A DNA stretch of 7,302 nucleotides from assembly GCA_012030815.1 (NCBI GenBank), contig JAAUVF010000040.1:1-7302 (forward strand), in the 5' to 3' direction. Below are positions 1 through 7,302 of this stretch, in pieces. The position numbers were made by a program, and so were the translations under genes. Every line of letters starts with the position of its first letter. The first letter of the stretch is position 1. The notes below the pieces were generated by a model. It did no database searches. It had not been told where the DNA came from and saw only the letters and a program-made list of their open reading frames with translations. Source of the stretch: Nanobdellota archaeon (GTDB taxonomy: Archaea > Thermoproteota > Nitrososphaeria > Nitrososphaerales > Nitrosopumilaceae).

Positions 1-335
1 AATTTTCATTGAATAATTAGAATTTGAATGAAACAATAAATAGATATAAAACATTGAAACGGATCTTGTCTTACTAATCTAAGCCCAAGATATTTTTTTA
101 CAGCAATTTTAGTTGTTTTATCTTTTGAAATTGATTTAATTATTTTTTCAATATTATCACTATTTCTAAAAAAATCATATTTACTATTACGATAAGATGT
201 AATTTTTCCTAAATCGCTAATTTTTAAAATATCTTGACCATTTACACCATACCAAAACTTATTTTGTTTTTTCCAAAGAAAAACCTGTCCACTATTTATC
301 GTATTTTCTAAGTTGATGGCATTATACTCTATCAT
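1..335 (-). CDS. ogg1: OGG1-type 8-oxoguanine DNA glycosylase, N-terminal part, cut by window edge and frameshifted
   Basis: This is the N-terminal half of a DNA glycosylase that removes 8-oxoguanine from oxidised DNA in base excision repair. It starts at ATG 335. The OGG1 N-terminal domain is visible as NLENTINSGQVFLWKK (residues 8-23), then FWYGVNGQ, then LGLRLVRQDPFQC near residues 83-95, which matches the LLRQDP-x-EC block of eukaryotic-type OGG1. The frame as written stops at base 6 after about 109 codons. Shifting by one base within the T-rich stretch at about positions 20-52 recovers HSNSNYSMKI, resembling the family's SSNNNI block, and this frame runs off the left edge. The catalytic helix-hairpin-helix with its Lys and Asp would lie outside the window. 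The start is 1 nt after the repaired stop of the upstream nuclease gene, so the two are probably co-transcribed. The family call is firm. The exact place of the missing base is not. Confidence 0.85.
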
Positions 336-336
336 C

Positions 337-1601
337 TCAGATAGATATTATTTCATTTACATCTGGAGCATGTGCATCAAAACCAAATTTCTCATGAATT
401 TCCTGAGCAAATTTTTGCATGATTCAGAATCACCATGAACTGTTAGAACTTTAGGATTGCCTTTGATTTTTTCAATTATCTCAAAAAGTTCATTTCTGTC
501 TGCATGACCTGAAAATTCAAATTGTTTTACTTCTGCTGCAACTCTTAGATCTTTTCCTCTAGTGGATACCTTTCCTGTGTCTAGTAGTTTTTTCCCAGGA
601 GTTCCTTCTCCTTGATATGATACAAGTGCAATTCCGTTATTGCTGTTAAATGAAAGTTCTTGCAAATAATACGTTGCATTACCTCCTACTAACATTCCAG
701 CAGGAGAAATTACTACACAAGGTTCTTCTAATGCATGCTTTCTTTTTTCATGATCTCTTATTGCAACTGACTCATTGATTGCATCTGCAAACACTTTTGG
801 ATCTCTTAGATAATCTGGATGATTAAACATTATTTCATTTACTTTAAGTGCCATACCGTCCATTATTATTTTATGTTTAAAATTTGAACTTCTCAAAATA
901 CATGCCATTTCTTGAGATCGTTCAACTGAAAATGATGGAATAAACAATACCCCTTTTCTATCCATTACTTCATTTGCAAATTCGATTAATTCTTTCTCAG
1001 ATTCTTTTCTTGGTTTTTGTTCTGTTTGAGAATATGTACTTTCCATAATTAAAAGATCAATATCTCCTATATCCAAGTCTGCCTCGCGAAGCATTCTTGA
1101 ACCATGTGTTTTGATATCACCTGTATAGAAAAGTCGTTTCTTCTGAGATTCTACTAATACTGAACCCCCTCCTACTACATGACCAGTTTCTCTTAATTCA
1201 AACGTTGCATTACCCTTAGTAATTTTTTCTCTAAATCCTATCTCTTTTGCATTTCGCATCATGTTGTTTAATTCCGGTAATCCAAATGGCTGAGCATCTT
1301 TAGTAATTTTTAGCATATCTTCAATGAGTAATCTCGTTAAATCAAAAGTTGGTGGAGTTGCATAAACATCAGTATTACCACTTACAAATAGAGATGGTAC
1401 ATTTCCTGAATGATCAAGATGAGCATGAGTGATAATAATTGCATCCAGATCTTTTGGCTTAACATGAAGCGGATATTCTGGCGGTGATCCCCGTTTTCCA
1501 AATAATACTCCATAATCTAATAGTAAATTTGTCCCATTACAGTTTACCAAAAAACCAGAACGACCTACTTCATTGGCAGCCCCTAAAACTTTAATCTCCA
1601 A
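337..1601 (-). CDS. aCPSF2: CPSF-type metallo-beta-lactamase/beta-CASP ribonuclease (aCPSF2-like)
   Basis: A two-zinc RNA-cleaving enzyme of the beta-CASP family, expected to act as cytoplasmic endo- and/or 5'-3' exoribonuclease. Metallo-beta-lactamase motifs are D29, HAHLDH (59-64), H141 and D162. The beta-CASP motifs are E187 (MESTY), H366 (FSGHAD) and H389 (VHGDS). A His at the last position is typical of CPSF-type enzymes, where RNase J has another residue. No N-terminal KH domains are present, which fits aCPSF2 and not aCPSF1/FttA. The start is TTG at 1601, with a TATA-like TTTTAACATA (1623-1632) about 27 bp upstream, suggesting a leaderless mRNA. As written the frame ends at 357 with an unrelated tail. 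Adding one A to the A5 run (T412-416 on the plus strand) gives KKFAQEIHEKFGFDAHAPDV and a stop at 337, for 421 aa in total. The repaired stop lies 1 nt from the ogg1 start. Confidence 0.93.
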
Positions 1602-1622
1602 GAAATAAATTGCGTTTTTCTC

Positions 1623-1632
1623 TATGTTAAAA
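1623..1632 (-). promoter_or_regulatory. TATA-like box of the beta-CASP nuclease gene
   Basis: On the minus strand this reads TTTTAACATA, centred about 27 bp upstream of the TTG at 1601. That spacing puts the transcription start on or next to the start codon. It lies in the 113-bp divergent region shared with the 70-aa gene, which has its own box at 1684-1691. Assigned by position and composition only. Confidence 0.5.
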
Positions 1633-1683
1633 CCTTCTTAGCAAAGTTCCGATCATTATGCGTATTATGGAATCTACAAAAGC

Positions 1684-1691
1684 TTTAATTA
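1684..1691 (+). promoter_or_regulatory. TATA-like box of the 70-aa gene
   Basis: TTTAATTA is centred about 27 bp upstream of the ATG at 1715, the spacing expected for an archaeal leaderless transcript. No ribosome-binding site is visible between it and the ATG, which supports a leaderless start. Confidence 0.55.
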
Positions 1692-1714
1692 GTGTAAGCT
1701 AAGATTCGATCCTT

Positions 1715-1927
1715 ATGGGAAGAAGCTTCCAAGAATGGTTAAAACTACAAGATCAAGCTGTAGTCGCTAAAACACGTGCAGGCGATGAAGCAAACAAACC
1801 ACTTCTTAACCAAATTAACTGGCTCTGGGTTAACAATCTGATGAAACAGAAAGCAGACCTAAATCCATCTTCAGCTGAATTACTTGACTGGGTAACCTCC
1901 GGTCAAATTGATGCAATGAGAAAATAA
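1715..1927 (+). CDS. Small conserved-looking protein of unknown function (70 aa)
   Basis: I do not recognise a characterised family. The 70-residue product is soluble-looking, mostly helical in character, rich in Trp (four: W8, W36, W38, W59), Gln, Asn and Lys, with no Cys, no membrane segment and no signal peptide. The N-terminal stretch MGRSFQEWLKLQDQ looks amphipathic, and INWLWVNNLM in the middle could form a hydrophobic surface for a partner. The ATG at 1715 is the first possible start: an in-frame TAA lies at 1700-1702, and a TATA-like box sits about 27 bp upstream. A hairpin plus T-rich tract follows the stop directly, so it looks like a single-gene transcription unit. It is intact as written, unlike most neighbours, so coding is likely from promoter, start, length and terminator together. 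Function remains open. Confidence 0.8.
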   Translation: MGRSFQEWLKLQDQAVVAKTRAGDEANKPLLNQINWLWVNNLMKQKADLNPSSAELLDWVTSGQIDAMRK

Positions 1928-1960
1928 ACGTGTAACACACGTTATCTTTTTGTTTTTTAT
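1927..1960 (+). terminator. Hairpin plus T-rich tract after the 70-aa gene
   Basis: A perfect 7-bp inverted repeat, AACGTGT / ACACGTT (1927-1933 and 1937-1943, 3-nt loop), begins on the last base of the stop codon and is followed by the T-rich stretch CTTTTTGTTTTTTATT. Archaeal termination mainly needs the T tract, so the hairpin may be an mRNA 3'-end structure rather than the terminator itself. Confidence 0.6.
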
Positions 1961-2022
1961 TATATTGTTAGTCTTCCTTCATGCATAAACTTTCATTTTG
2001 ACAAATTTTAACTCCGATCAAT

Positions 2023-2041
2023 TTCATAACAGGGTTATGAA
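2023..2041. promoter_or_regulatory. 8-bp dyad upstream of the ferredoxin promoter, candidate regulator site
   Basis: TTCATAAC and GTTATGAA form a perfect inverted repeat with a 3-bp spacer (AGG). Its centre is about 25 bp upstream of the TATA-like box of the ferredoxin gene, near -52 relative to the inferred transcription start. This is where an archaeal activator dimer could bind next to TFB/TBP. There is no T tract after it on the plus strand, so a terminator is less likely. The role is inferred from symmetry and position alone. Confidence 0.35.
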
Positions 2042-2053
2042 TTTTGATTATGG

Positions 2054-2061
2054 TTTAAATA
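2054..2061 (+). promoter_or_regulatory. TATA-like box of the ferredoxin gene
   Basis: TTTAAATA, a strong archaeal TATA match, is centred about 29 bp upstream of the ATG at 2087 and implies a leader of 0-4 nt. Confidence 0.6.
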
Positions 2062-2086
2062 GGAACCAAGCAAACATTATGTTGTA

Positions 2087-2388
2087 ATGCCAATAGCAAT
2101 ACTTCCAGACATTGATGAACAAAGATGTATCGGATGTGCACTATGTGTAGAAATCTGTACAACTCTTGGTCCTGATGTCCTTAGAGTAAAACCTGTTGAA
2201 GGCTGGAAGAGAGGTAAAGCATTTGTATTTTATCCAGAAAGATGTATTTCTGATGGTGCATGCATCGGTGTATGCCCAACAAATCAATCTTTTGGATGAG
2301 ACCAATGAATTACACAGCTGGACAACCAGTACCTCTTCACAAAAACGGTATCTTCATCAAAGGTTGGGCAGAAGACGCTGCACTATAA
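2087..2388 (+). CDS. Dicluster ferredoxin with one Asp in place of a cluster Cys (frameshifted as written)
   Basis: A small iron-sulfur electron carrier, presumably cytosolic; the redox partner is not evident from the neighbours. The first motif is C14-x2-C17-x2-C20-x3-C24. The second is CISDGACIGVCP, giving C53, D56, C59 and C63, with Asp where the second Cys normally sits. The same substitution is known in Pyrococcus furiosus ferredoxin, where Asp ligates a [4Fe-4S] cluster that readily converts to [3Fe-4S]. As written the frame ends at 2299 after CPTNQSFG. Adding one A to the AAA at 2281-2283 gives CPTKSIFWMRPMNYTAGQPV and continues to TAA 2386-2388, for 100 aa in total, with a C-terminal extension of about 35 residues after the last cluster motif. 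T-rich runs at 2410-2415 and 2420-2424 probably terminate it. Confidence 0.9.
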
Positions 2389-2407
2389 GCAGAATCTTTT
2401 AGCACAC

Positions 2408-2426
2408 ACTTTTTTCTTATTTTTAT
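2408..2426 (+). terminator. T-rich tract after the ferredoxin gene
   Basis: T6 (2410-2415) and T5 (2420-2424) lie in the short convergent gap between the ferredoxin stop (2388) and the tgtA stop (2427). Oligo-T tracts of this kind terminate archaeal RNA polymerase. No clear hairpin is seen. Confidence 0.5.
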
Positions 2427-3936
2427 TTAAACAATAGACTTTCTTTTTATCGCTTTAGGGAGCGTTCTGATATAATGCTTCAAAAATTCATCCGTTTTAT
2501 CAAAATAAATTTCTGAAAATTGATTGTTTTTAAAAAATAATTCCCACGTATTTTCAAAAGTTGGAAATTCTTTTGGATCAAAATTTAATCTTGAAACTTC
2601 ATGATGTGCAGCAGGAAATATATCTGAAATTTCTAACGGAATTAATCCTAAATGTGGGCTATATTGGCAAACTTGAATATTTTCAATCTCTTTGAATTTT
2701 TGTTTTAGTGAGAGATACTCAAGTGACAAATATGCTGGTTTTGTATTAGATTCTTTGGTTATGATTAAAGTTTTTTTCTTTGATTTGAATTTTCTAACTG
2801 TTTTGTGATATGACTGAACTTCTGGACGATATTGATCTTCCTTTCCATAAAGGAAAATTGCTTTTTCTTTGAATTTTGGAGTTGATATTTCAAAATAACT
2901 GGAATTTTCAGTAAACACGTCTATCATTTCAAATAATTTTGGATGTGCTCTTGCTTTTTTAAGACATATTCCCATAATCTACCCTCATGAATTGCTTGTT
3001 TCACTTTATCTACCTCAGTTTTTATTGAATGTAAATTATGCAGAGCAATCTCATTAATTTTCTCCTGGCCTTCTAATTGACGTAACTCATCAGGTGTATA
3101 CTTTGAACATACTTCACAGTTACAAGGAAATACTGAAATCTCTGAAAGATTTCGTGTACCATCATCTGTAATGTATCTTTCTTGTTTAGCATATAACATG
3201 TAAGAGGCAGAATCAAAAGTATCACAACCAAGTGCAACTGCAAACGGTATGGTTAGTGGATGTCCTGCACCAAAAAGATGTAGTGGAATAGAATAAGGCA
3301 TCTGTTTTTTTGCAGATATGATCATCTGCGCTAATAGTTTGTATTCATACGACTCCATAAATTCTACCGGGCTACCCAAAGCTAGCATCTTAAAACCCAT
3401 ATCGACTAAACCTTTTGTTGATTTTGCTACAAGATCAAAATGCTCTCCACCTTGAATTGGTCCAATCCAGATCTGACCATTACTTTCACTGTCTTCAAGT
3501 GTCTTCTTTGATACTTTTAGAGTATGATTAACATATGATTCAGCTTTTTTCCATGCAAGTCCATAACCTGTTGGCTTGTCTAATGGGATTGCAAAATCTG
3601 TAAGTATTTTCTTTTCAAACTCTGCCATCTCCGGTGGTAACACTTTGACATCACCATATTCTAGAACTTGATATCCTCCAGAGTCTGTCATTATAGCTCC
3701 ATCAAAATCTATTATTTTATGAATTCCTTTTTTTTCAGCTTCGTCACCGTAGTTGTTTCTAGTGATGTATGCATTTGTAATTACTAAATCAAATCCTATG
3801 TCTTTGATCTTCCTAGATGGAATAGTTTGTTTTACGGGATGAATTACTGGCACATAAGCAGGTGTTTCTATTTTCCATGATTTGTTTGAATCACCCCAAT
3901 TCTTCCGCCCAAGTCACTTTTTAAAATCTCAAACAA
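2427..3936 (-). CDS. tgtA: Archaeal tRNA-guanine(15) transglycosylase (archaeosine synthesis), two frameshifts as written
   Basis: It exchanges guanine-15 in the tRNA D-arm for preQ0, the first tRNA-level step of archaeosine synthesis. Repaired numbering: N-terminal GRIGVIQTNHGKIETPAYVP (11-30), general acid D85 in MTDSGGYQV, IQGG near 161-164, nucleophile D242 in DTFDSASY, and a zinc site at C272, C274, C277, H300. The spacing agrees with the Pyrococcus horikoshii enzyme as I remember it. As written the gene falls into two pieces with a GTG start at 3853. Adding one T to T4 at 3871-3874 restores the true N-terminus, starting at TTG 3936. Adding one T to T6 at 2955-2960 joins WEYVLKK to ARAHPKLFEM. 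This gives 503 aa: catalytic domain plus a C1/C2-like tail, apparently without the PUA domain of the roughly 580-aa euryarchaeal forms. A TATA-like TTAAATA (3961-3967) lies 28 bp upstream. Confidence 0.93.
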
Positions 3937-3960
3937 GTTATTGCTTCTCAATAATAGCGT

Positions 3961-3967
3961 TATTTAA
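3961..3967 (-). promoter_or_regulatory. TATA-like box of tgtA, at the 3' end of the kinase gene
   Basis: The minus strand reads TTAAATA, centred 28 bp upstream of the inferred TTG start at 3936. It lies immediately after the repaired stop of the kinase gene (3970-3968), so tgtA could be transcribed both from its own promoter and by read-through from the kinase. Confidence 0.45.
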
Positions 3968-4515
3968 TCAATAAGAAAAAAATTTTTTCAAATCATCATT
4001 TTTTGTTACTAAATCAAGCCAATCTATTTCCTCACTTGAATCTTTACCATTGATTATGCTCATTACTTTATCGGATACTTCTAAAACACTTTTTTCTGTA
4101 ACATCAACTTGGAATACCTTTACTCCAAATTGATTAATTGCATCATGAGCTATAATTCCTAGAATTTCACTACCTGTATTTTCTCTGATTTTTCTTCAGA
4201 GTACTCTCTTTTTTTATAAACTGAAATCAAATCATAAGGATTTCTTCGCAAAACGATCATTTTCTTTATTTGTTCTTTTGATAAAACATATGGTGCTAAA
4301 TGTCCGACAATTAAGCAGGGCTTTAAAATCTGATTTTTAATTATTTTCTTTAACTTTGATACATCTACCTCGGTTACATCTTCATTTTTTTCAAACAATT
4401 CTGAATCTTTAGCGATATTGTTTATGTCAATTATTGGTAATCCTAAATGTTTTGAAACTTCATTGACTATCGTGTGTTTTCCTACACCTGGATTTCCAGT
4501 AATTACTATTGACAT
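3968..4515 (-). CDS. Fap7/hCINAP-like adenylate kinase-ATPase (frameshifted as written)
   Basis: A small P-loop NMP kinase of the archaeal Fap7 type. In eukaryotes Fap7 is an adenylate kinase/ATPase acting in late 40S maturation, and archaeal relatives are thought to act similarly. Seen here: a P-loop GNPGVGKHT at 7-15, GHLAPY (71-76), LRRNPYDL (89-96), KKREYSEEKSEKNTGSEI (101-118) with the family's Arg-Tyr-Lys-Asn pattern, and IDWL (164-167) near the C-terminus, characteristic of Fap7. The Ser/Thr after the Walker A Lys is His14. As written it stops at 4159. Adding one T to T4 at 4179-4182 continues the frame to TGA 3970-3968, for 182 aa, a normal length. The start is ATG 4515, with TTTAATT (4538-4544) 26 bp upstream. 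The end lies 31 bp before tgtA on the same strand, so an operon is possible. Confidence 0.85.
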
Positions 4516-4537
4516 ATTATAAAACCAACATGAACTG

Positions 4538-4544
4538 AATTAAA
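4538..4544 (-). promoter_or_regulatory. TATA-like box of the Fap7-like kinase gene
   Basis: The minus strand reads TTTAATT, centred 26 bp upstream of ATG 4515, giving a leaderless transcript. It shares the 73-bp divergent region with the ychF promoter. Confidence 0.5.
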
Positions 4545-4558
4545 CAATTTCTGCAATA

Positions 4559-4565
4559 CTAATAA
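4559..4565 (+). promoter_or_regulatory. Weak TATA-like box of ychF-kae1
   Basis: TAATAAG is centred about 27 bp upstream of the TTG start at 4589. It is a poorer match than the other boxes in this window, but nothing better is present at the right distance. Confidence 0.3.
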
Positions 4566-4588
4566 GTACAATAGCATTTTTGTGTGTA

Positions 4589-5777
4589 TTGCAAATTGGT
4601 TTACTTGGTAAAGCAAACGTTGGAAAATCTACATTTTTTCAGCTGCTACTGAAACCCTGTTCCTATAGGAAACTTCCCATTTACAACAATTCAACCAAAT
4701 CTTGGTGTAGCATATGTAAAATCTAATTGCGCTTGTCAACATTTTGAAATAAAACATCAAAATCCACTTTGTGTAAATGGAACTCGCTTTATTCCAGTTA
4801 AATTAATTGATGTTGCTGGATTAGTACCTGGGGCACATGAAGGAAAAGGTTTGGGGAATCAATTTCTTGATGATGCAAGACAAGCTGAGGTCTTGATACA
4901 TGTAGTTGACATAGCCGGTACAACTGATATTCAGGGTCAACCTATTCCTGTAGGTACACATGATCCACTTGAAGATGTTGATTTTGTTGAAAATGAATTT
5001 GATGAATGGTTTACAGATATACTTCGTAGAGAATGGGATAAACTCACTAGAGAGATAGAACAAAAAAGAGCAAAACTTGTTGATGGAATTGCAAAAAGAT
5101 TTACCGGTTTAGGAATCAAAGACTATCAAGTACAAGATGTATTGAATAAACTAGACTTAATTTCAAAAAATCTAAAAGAATGGAATGATTCTGACATTCA
5201 TGTCTTTGTTAAAGAATTGAGAAAAAATACTAAACCCATTATTATTGCTGCAAATAAAGCAGATCTTTGCAAAGATCTTGATATTATTAAAAAAATTCCT
5301 GATACTATTGTAGTTCCATGTAGTGCTGAAACTGAATTATTATTACGAAAAGCATCCAAATCTGGAATGATACATTATGAATCAGGTGATGAAAAATTTT
5401 CTATATCTGAAAATAAAGAAATATTGCCACAGCAACAAAAAGCTCTAGATCTAGTGAATACTGTTTTTTCAAAAATTCAAACAACTGGAATTCAGAAGAT
5501 TTTAAATCTTGCAGTGTTTGATTTGTTAAAATTAATTATTGTTTTTCCTGTAGAAGATGAGACAAAATTAACAAACAAAAATGGTGATGTTTTACCTGAT
5601 GCAAAATTATTACCACAAGATTCAACTGCAAAAGACTTGGCAGGTTTAATTCATGCAGATATTGCTAAGGGATTTTTACATGCCATTGATTGTAAAACAA
5701 AACAAAGGATTGGTGGTGACCATAAACTAAAAAATGGCGATGTGATCAAAATAGTTTCGACATTAAGTAGGGGATAA
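4589..5777 (+). CDS. ychF: Archaeal YchF/Obg-like GTPase with TGS domain, two frameshifts as written
   Basis: A translation-associated P-loop GTPase of the YchF/OLA1 group. Repaired numbering: G1 GKANVGKST (7-15), the family segment ETPVPIGNFPFTTIQPNLG (22-40), G3 DVAG (75-78) followed by LVPGAHEGKGLG, coiled-coil-like helices at about 135-215, G4 NKAD (223-226), G5-like CSAE (245-248), and a C-terminal TGS domain from about 318. Bacterial and eukaryotic YchF have NxxE at G4 and prefer ATP, so canonical NKAD predicts GTP. C48, C50 and C62 resemble a Cys cluster of archaeal homologues. Intact coding as written begins only near 4851. Adding one T to T6 (4634-4639) and one C to C3 (4655-4657) joins it to the P-loop with a TTG start at 4589, for 396 aa, close to my recollection of MJ1332. 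kae1 starts 1 nt after the stop. Confidence 0.93.
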
Positions 5778-5778
5778 C

Positions 5779-6760
5779 ATGCTTGGTCTAGGTGTTGAAA
5801 GCACAGCTCATACTTTTTCTTGTGCAATCTTAGAAAAAAAAGGAAAACAAGGAAAAATTTTATCTGATATAAGAAAAATCTATCGCCCTCCTGATGGGGA
5901 AGGAATTCATCCTAGAGAGGCATCTAGACATCATGTTGAAAACAGCTCCACTGTGTTATCTGAATGCCTTAAAGAATCTGGTGTCACAATCAAAGATCTT
6001 GATATCATCTCATATGCTGCAGGTCCTGGTCTAGGTCCTTGTTTGAGGGTTGGTGCAGTAGTGGCACGTTCTCTTGCATCTTATTACAATATTCCTATTT
6101 ACCCTGTTAATCATGCAATAGGACATATTGAATTAGGAAAATTACTCACTGGTGCAAAAAATCCACTGGTTCTTTTAGTTTCTGGTGGACATACCATGTT
6201 ACTTGCATTTCTAAATAAACAATGGAGGGTATTTGGAGAAACATTAGATATTACATTGGGTCAACTATTAGATCAATTTGGAAGATCAATTGGATTTGCA
6301 TCTCCATGTGGAAAAAATATTGAGGATTTAGCTTCCTCAACTTCTAATTATGTAATACTTCCATATTCTGTAAAAGGAAATGATGTGTCATTTTCTGGCT
6401 TGTTATCTGCAACAAAATCAATTGTCCGAAAAAGTAAGGCTGATGCATGTTTTTCATTACAAGAGACTGCGTTTGCAATGATTAGTGAAGCTGTAGAGCG
6501 AGCTTTGTCATTTACTAGAAAAAAGAATTATTGATAGTCGGAGGCGTTGCTGCAAATAAAAGATTATCCGAAATGTTACACGATGTTTGTAAAAGACATA
6601 CTTGTAAATTTTTTATTGCTCCTCAAAAGTATGCTGGTGATTGTGGTAGTCAAATATGTTGGACAGGACTATTGGAATCTCAAGTAAAAATGGTGTTTCT
6701 CTTGAAGAAACTTTTGTTACTCAATCATGGAGATTAGATTCAGTTAAAGTAGATTATTGA
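5779..6760 (+). CDS. kae1: Kae1, tRNA N6-threonylcarbamoyladenosine transferase subunit (KEOPS), two frameshifts as written
   Basis: The catalytic ASKHA-fold subunit of KEOPS, which transfers threonylcarbamoyl from TC-AMP to A37 of ANN-decoding tRNAs (t6A). Seen: GVESTAHTFSCAI (5-17), HPREASRHH (44-52), metal-binding H112-x3-H116 (NHAIGH), SGGHT (135-139), ETLDITLGQLLDQFGR (154-169), GGVAANKRL (255-263) and D288 in AGDCG. The usual motif there is DNG, so Asn is replaced by Cys. As written the gene stops at 6534. Adding one A to A6 at 6519-6524 joins ALSFTRKK to ELLIVGGVAANK, and one A to A5 at 6686-6690 restores the C-terminus ending SVKVDY at TGA 6758-6760. The total is 327 aa, a normal length. 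The start ATG is 1 nt after the ychF stop, preceded by AGGGGAT as a partial ribosome-binding site. No Bud32 follows, unlike in many archaea. T5 at 6761-6765 may terminate it. Confidence 0.95.
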
Positions 6761-7080
6761 TTTTTATGCTCTTTTATTGCATTTTCAATATTTTTTAGCC
6801 AGTCTTTAGTATTAAAAACTCCAAATTTGTATGTCTGTTCACCGTCTTTTGTTTTGGCAGTAAAGCATACTTTTTTTATCAGGCGGCCCTCTTTCCAAAC
6901 TTTTTCTACGTTGTCCAGTGATACGTCAATCACTGTATCTCCAAAACGTTTTGAAAAGTCCATCATCCTTGATTTAGTTTTATCAAACGCTAATCTTCTA
7001 TTTGTTAAAGTTAGAATACCTGCACCGAATTTATCTTCATTACAATCCTCTTGTTTTAGTCTCTTTTCACCGTCTTCCAT
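6754..7080 (-). CDS. Small PH/GRAM-like domain protein (108 aa)
   Basis: A small soluble protein with a pleckstrin-homology-like pattern, function unknown. GAGILTLTNRRLAF (19-32) is the typical strand signature of bacterial/archaeal PH and GRAM-like domains. Further strands follow (VIDVSLDNVEKVW, KKVCFTAKTKDGE, TYKFGVF), and then a C-terminal helix with a conserved-looking Trp (DWLKNIENAIKEH, 93-105). There is no membrane segment or signal peptide, and the domain fills the whole protein, so it probably works as a binding module. The start is ATG 7080; an in-frame TAA lies 9 nt upstream, and a TATA-like TTATAA (7108-7113 region) sits about 30 bp upstream. Its stop overlaps the repaired kae1 stop by 7 nt in a tail-to-tail arrangement. 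It is intact as written. Confidence 0.75.
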   Translation of the reverse strand: MEDGEKRLKQEDCNEDKFGAGILTLTNRRLAFDKTKSRMMDFSKRFGDTVIDVSLDNVEKVWKEGRLIKKVCFTAKTKDGEQTYKFGVFNTKDWLKNIENAIKEHKNQ

Positions 7081-7107
7081 GATTAGTTTTTACCATTATT
7101 TCTTAGG

Positions 7108-7113
7108 TTATAA
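7108..7113 (-). promoter_or_regulatory. TATA-like box of the PH-like gene
   Basis: The minus strand reads TTATAA within AAAATTATAACC, centred about 30 bp upstream of ATG 7080, implying a leader of about 0-5 nt. This supports 7080 as the start over the out-of-frame ATG at 7096. Confidence 0.5.
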
Positions 7114-7146
7114 TTTTACTGAATTTGATAACTAGAATTTATGTCT

Positions 7147-7224
7147 GCTAACTATTTCTAGTATCTTCTACCACTCTGGAGCCTCTAGTCTCAAAAACAA
7201 CTTTATTTCACTGTATATTAACAT
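7147..7224 (-). CDS. Possible tiny ORF, about 26 codons, needing one base repair
   Basis: From ATG 7224 the minus strand reads MLIYSEIKLF and then, as written, falls into a frame that ends early. Adding one T to the T5 run near 7192-7196, as needed in seven other genes here, would give FFETRGSRVVEDTRNS and then TAG. The second half has a protein-like charge pattern, and an in-frame stop lies just upstream of the ATG. No strong TATA box is seen at the right distance. Treat it as a guess: a 26-codon ORF can arise by chance. Confidence 0.2.
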
Positions 7225-7302
7225 GCAAAATCAATTACAGTACTGAAAATTTGAATTAATGAAATTAACCTAAAATAAACTCTAAATTATAACATTTCAA
7301 TT

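Follow-up and report, generated by a model that had tools for sequence, protein, structure and literature searches.

Nine one-base deletions in six genes of a Nitrosarchaeum-like archaeal contig are very probably homopolymer under-calls

Six conserved genes in a 7,302-nucleotide stretch of archaeal DNA (contig JAAUVF010000040.1 of assembly GCA_012030815.1; hereafter the window, bases 1-7302) are interrupted by nine one-base deletions, those for a beta-CASP nuclease, a ferredoxin and a small kinase once each, and tgtA, ychF and kae1 twice each. We consider it very probable that these nine frameshifts are errors of the consensus sequence, brought about by under-calling of homopolymers, and not damage to genes in the organism. 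This reading is drawn from four properties taken together: each deletion is one base in size, all nine adjoin single-letter runs of three to six bases, all are private to the window among its relatives, and selection has acted alike across the breaks. An earlier inspection of the bare letters (the sequence-only reading) had already preferred homopolymer under-calling, an explanation that run association, privacy and even selection now support. It had counted ten deletions in seven genes; nine deletions and six genes stand, and the supposed tenth, in ogg1, is replaced by insertions at the left end of the window.

Results

Relatives of the window and the position of the deletions

With the YchF piece of the window as query, 80 loci from public genomes were kept, the best of them from Nitrosarchaeum, with about 90% identity at the protein level. 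Five loci (L006, L001, L002, L007 and L011) aligned with the window in one piece at 84-88% DNA identity, reaching base 7123-7131, and have the same gene order. Because of these YchF matches, DNA identities and common gene order, the window most likely comes from the chromosome of an ammonia-oxidising archaeon that is Nitrosarchaeum-like. For base-level comparison, eight relatives with long synteny were chosen from the 80 loci (the five above together with L038, L036 and L019) and aligned with the window by MAFFT in local-pair mode.

This alignment places one-base gaps in the window after positions 412, 2280, 2954, 3870, 4193, 4638, 4655, 6518 and 6685, and all eight relatives possess a base at every one of these sites. 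Between positions 61 and 7080, where 6634 of 7020 bases were counted as coding, these nine are all the isolated indels of one base that the window alone carries; no private indel of greater length was found within the six broken genes in the same alignment. A translated comparison points to the same six genes: L001 proteins matched to the window by tblastn reveal frame changes in the ferredoxin gene, tgtA (three frames), the kinase gene and kae1 (three frames), and matches that are split where the beta-CASP gene ends and where ychF begins. Both unbroken neighbours, encoding proteins of 70 and 108 amino acids, were intact by this test. Eight of the nine run coordinates that had been proposed were correct, the exception being the kinase run, which lies at 4189-4193 and not at 4179-4182 (Table 1).

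Association with single-letter runs

The runs touched by the nine gaps are, in order, 5, 3, 6, 4, 5, 6, 3, 6 and 5 bases long (mean 4.78). Five- or six-base runs occur at six of the nine sites, and three-base runs only in ferredoxin and at one of the two ychF sites. Runs of at least three bases are touched by all nine gaps, versus 32% of random junctions. Since aligners shift gaps, deletions were also simulated and realigned: 347 of 360 random one-base deletions introduced into L007 were recovered as private, with a mean adjacent run of 2.10 versus the 4.78 observed, the simulation using a faster MAFFT mode and privacy against four relatives, and the observed set local-pair mode and eight. In 400,000 resamples of nine simulated deletions, a mean of 4.78 was never reached. 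According to the earlier claim, the restored base lengthens a visible run in nine cases. A run adjoins every gap, and the missing letter could equal the run letter at all nine sites, but after 4638, 4655 and 6685 relatives often carry a different letter.

Selection in the broken genes

Omega was computed from counts that omit codons touching gaps, pooled and per-gene values excluding bases 1-50. Pooled values for the window were 0.088 with L001, 0.079 with L002, 0.074 with L007 and 0.109 with L011; pairing these four relatives with one another gave 0.077, 0.066, 0.070, 0.114, 0.106 and 0.093. For the six broken genes, comparison with L001 gave an omega of 0.077 before the first break and 0.088 after it, in a count that still included bases 1-50 and in which left-end ogg1 codons were partly misaligned. 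When the window is read in the frame of L001, the sole stop is the last codon in all eight of its complete genes. Given normal omega and terminal stops only, the parts that would be untranslatable under real breaks therefore evolve like the remainder. Relaxed selection, in-frame stops and larger indels, the signs of pseudogene decay, are all lacking from the six broken genes, which agrees with the earlier argument that genuine decay would have brought in-frame stops, substitutions and insertions as well.

It is very unlikely, in our estimation, that the lineage has really lost these six genes through recent frameshifts in runs. Runs are natural hot spots of frameshifting, small deletions prevail in prokaryotic gene decay, and events recent enough would be invisible to tests of selection. 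Such a loss would nevertheless require nine separate mutations across six core genes, among them Kae1, TgtA and ferredoxin, which are hard to lose together. It is opposed by the similar omega on either side of the first breaks, the lack of any internal stop in the relatives' frame, and the failure of the same lesions to recur in the 80 loci over the stretches that these cover. One known error process is a far likelier cause than nine real mutations that hit six core genes and left no other trace of decay.

The same positions in other genomes

A related genome with the same lesions, which would have spoken against the sequence-only reading, was not found in that survey over the stretches covered. 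Across 80 loci and ten genes, many loci not reaching all genes, eight of 800 gene-by-locus cells looked broken or doubtful: in L006 the beta-CASP and kinase genes, in L021 the kinase gene, in L029, L040 and L061 the ferredoxin gene, in L031 ogg1 and in L074 tgtA. On inspection none of the eight carries a lesion of the window, and a shared or programmed frameshift was rejected. The nearest cases are the L006 kinase deletion, which affects a T run at a distance of 16 bases, and the L061 ferredoxin, whose match ends at residue 62 (the window breaks at residue 65) with the remainder not found in another frame. Peptides of about 40 residues spanning the breaks found unbroken matches in 49, 59, 70, 75, 77, 79, 79, 77 and 77 of the 80 loci, in window order, the gene itself being absent from many of the remaining loci; this test flags the window itself at eight sites and leaves it unflagged at 2280, where it thus has no power.

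When the privacy test was applied to the relatives, it gave no private one-base indel in L001, L002, L036 and L019, one in L007, five in L011 and two in L038, all of them intergenic or at most 20 bases from a stop codon; each of the latter three genomes has a single one in stretches counted as coding, in every case within 20 bases of a stop codon. L006, contig tig00000166 of Nitrosarchaeum sp. BD3, is like the window in having two private one-base deletions that lie inside genes and in T runs and break the beta-CASP and kinase genes; it differs in the positions affected (591 and 4209 in window numbering) and in having fewer deletions, and a long-read origin is guessed for it from the contig name. 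These T-run deletions in two genes of a public genome (beta-CASP gene at L006:3474-4735, kinase gene at L006:7119-7663) are probably errors of the same kind. Our literature search found nothing on frameshifts in nanopore-sequenced Nitrosarchaeum and, judging by titles and the openings of abstracts, nothing on PacBio sequencing of strain BD3.

The same positions in protein databases

Among the 120 Kae1 matches listed, 117 are 327 amino acids long. Of the three shorter ones, all inspected, P0102 ends abnormally just past the residues encoded by the same A run, with a tail unlike that produced by a one-base loss in the window, as far as the protein can tell. TgtA is 489-512 amino acids long in 113 of the 120 matches listed and shorter in seven, of which only P0238 has nearly the same shifted tail as the TgtA piece of the window. 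This metagenome protein (322 amino acids, 83% identical, from a cluster of six sequences) has the same shift at T2955-2960. Two of its near-identical counterparts, P0241 (99% identical to it) and P0242 (98%, from a cluster of 717), are full length at 503 amino acids each, and among the 120 matches listed no other protein covers P0238 over its whole length. The tgtA run would thus be shortened or miscounted in two separate sequences; because P0241 and P0242 are full length we favour miscounting, short of proof.

P0238 also bears on the idea that the frameshifts are real and tolerated by recoding, whereby part of the protein is recovered through slippage of RNA polymerase on A or T runs or through ribosomal frameshifting. 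We regard this as extremely unlikely. Run slippage and the rescue of broken genes are described for other systems (for example PMC5009743, PMC4256274), and the runs of five or six bases at six of nine sites and the recurrence in P0238 would suit it. Against it, the runs in ferredoxin and at one of the ychF sites are only three bases long, and proteins 98-99% identical to P0238 are full length. A programmed frameshift would be expected to conserve its shift site, but every one of the eight aligned relatives carries the extra base at each of the nine. That six core genes of an ammonia oxidiser hold genuine frameshifts at short runs, and that systematic transcriptional slippage or ribosomal frameshifting keeps the cell alive, is extremely improbable.

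The left end and ogg1

Positions 1-63 of the window differ from L001 by no substitution and no deletion, but by four insertion events comprising five extra bases, all within the first 42 bases of the window; the four events recur in pairwise alignments with all seven relatives so compared. None of the eight aligned relatives has the insertions at 29 and 42. These two extra bases precede the others when ogg1 is read, and modulo three they amount to one missing base, so that ogg1 appears to be one base short. The ogg1 deletion was rejected accordingly: the disturbance consists of left-end insertions, and the gene is truncated by the window edge in any case. Four insertions without a substitution look like raw-read error.

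Discussion

Several observations weigh against under-calling. At 4638, 4655 and 6685 the missing base may have lain beside the run instead of inside it. The errors at the left end are insertions, opposite in direction to the nine deletions, so that the earlier statement that all changes go one way is true of the latter and fails in the first 42 bases. Omega for the ogg1 piece is somewhat high, 0.208 against L001 and 0.150 against L002, compared with 0.080-0.223 when relatives were paired with each other (four pairs). Constraint on the kinase is loose, at 0.283 and 0.183 respectively, compared with 0.189-0.299 in four such pairs. Tests of selection are insensitive to very recent real mutations, and real frameshifts favour runs too. 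The shift of P0238 at the second tgtA run would also be expected from a real, recurrent lesion. Finally, no protein of the same species was among the matches listed, where identity to the corresponding piece of the window reaches 96% for Kae1 and 95% for TgtA.

With these reservations, homopolymer under-calling remains the explanation that we prefer. A base caller or assembler would have undercounted short runs, mostly of A or T and once of C, and accurate reads would never have corrected the undercounts; unpolished reads are a plausible source. The platform would presumably be one with run-length errors, either a long-read platform or another such as pyrosequencing, and its reads would show the longer runs. 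At the left end, if the edge is that of the contig and coverage is low, few overlapping reads may have allowed insertion errors to persist. In the living cell ogg1, tgtA, ychF, kae1 and the genes for the beta-CASP nuclease, ferredoxin and kinase are most likely intact.

Comparable errors have been described. In PMC12007338, deletion errors of a long-read assembly are strongly tied to runs of two to eight bases, most commonly four to five and mostly of A or T; such errors fragment genes and raise the number of apparent pseudogenes, and correction lowered the pseudogene rate from 23.3% to 5.6% in one example. Like the errors in that account (PMC12007338), the deletions of the window adjoin runs, mostly of A or T, and split genes; unlike them, three of nine may have removed a base beside the run, and the window need not derive from long reads.

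Automatic annotation of this contig would wrongly record six or seven genes as split or as pseudogenes. This calls for caution in a lineage where metabolism is inferred from gene loss, and comparison with intact relatives reveals the breaks.

Genes and other features of the window

Genes were named from Pfam matches of the window and NCBIfam matches of the intact L001 copies. The L001 TgtA, Kae1 and YchF-related GTPase passed the NCBIfam cut-off; L001 ogg1, beta-CASP protein, ferredoxin and kinase had family matches below it only. The label Fap7-like, given earlier to the kinase, was not returned by these searches, whose matches are AAA_18 and 'putative kinase'. No Rfam family at the gathering threshold and no tRNA was found in the window.

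Table 1. Coordinates of sites and genes in the window
Feature	Position	Strand	Basis or remark
Left window end, four insertion events (five extra bases) disturbing ogg1	1..45		Pairwise alignments, 7 relatives
T run one base short (beta-CASP)	412..416		Gap after 412; base in 8/8 relatives
A run one base short (ferredoxin)	2281..2283		AAAA in 8/8 relatives
T run one base short (tgtA)	2955..2960		Same shift in metagenome protein P0238
T run one base short (tgtA)	3871..3874		Alignment
T run one base short (kinase)	4189..4193		Alignment
T run one base short, or C lost from within (ychF)	4634..4639		Relatives there: C in 6/8, T in 2/8
C run one base short, or neighbouring other base lost (ychF)	4655..4657		T there in 6/8 relatives
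A run one base short (kae1)	6519..6524		Alignment
A run one base short, or third base of preceding valine codon lost (kae1)	6686..6690		Alignment
ogg1 (8-oxoguanine DNA glycosylase), N-terminal part, truncated by window edge	6..335	-	Pfam OGG_N; L001 copy 280 amino acids, NCBIfam ogg below cut-off
beta-CASP metallo-beta-lactamase nuclease, one deletion at T412-416	337..1601	-	Pfam, MAFFT alignment, tblastn
70-amino-acid protein, unbroken	1715..1927		tblastn
Ferredoxin (4Fe-4S), one deletion at A2281-2283	2087..2388	+	Pfam, MAFFT alignment, tblastn
tgtA, tRNA guanosine(15) transglycosylase, two deletions	2427..3951	-	NCBIfam TIGR00432 (L001 copy), MAFFT alignment, tblastn
Small P-loop kinase (AAA_18), one deletion	3968..4515	-	Pfam; best NCBIfam match of L001 copy PRK03839 putative kinase, below cut-off; alignment, tblastn
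ychF-related GTPase, two deletions near N terminus	4580..5777	+	NCBIfam NF007171 (L001 copy), alignment, tblastn
kae1 (KEOPS threonylcarbamoyladenine synthase), two deletions	5779..6760	+	NCBIfam TIGR03722 (L001 copy), alignment, tblastn
108-amino-acid protein, unbroken	6754..7080		Convergent with kae1; tblastn

The two unbroken genes are both conserved in relatives. At the threshold used, Pfam gave no match for the 70-amino-acid protein, nor did NCBIfam for its L001 copy; the same is true of the 108-amino-acid protein, whose gene overlaps the end of kae1 by seven bases. The spacer between the latter gene and bud32 is variable: 36-38 bases in 57 of the 73 loci having both genes, and 1.8-2.6 kb in L002, L004, L005 and L008, where it contains an amino-acid permease (L002), histidine kinases (L004 and L008) or a protein whose end is matrixin-like (L005). 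In the window this spacer (7081-7302) is at least 222 bases long, about 120 of them without a match, and the last 30-50 bases match the DNA directly before bud32 in the same four loci.

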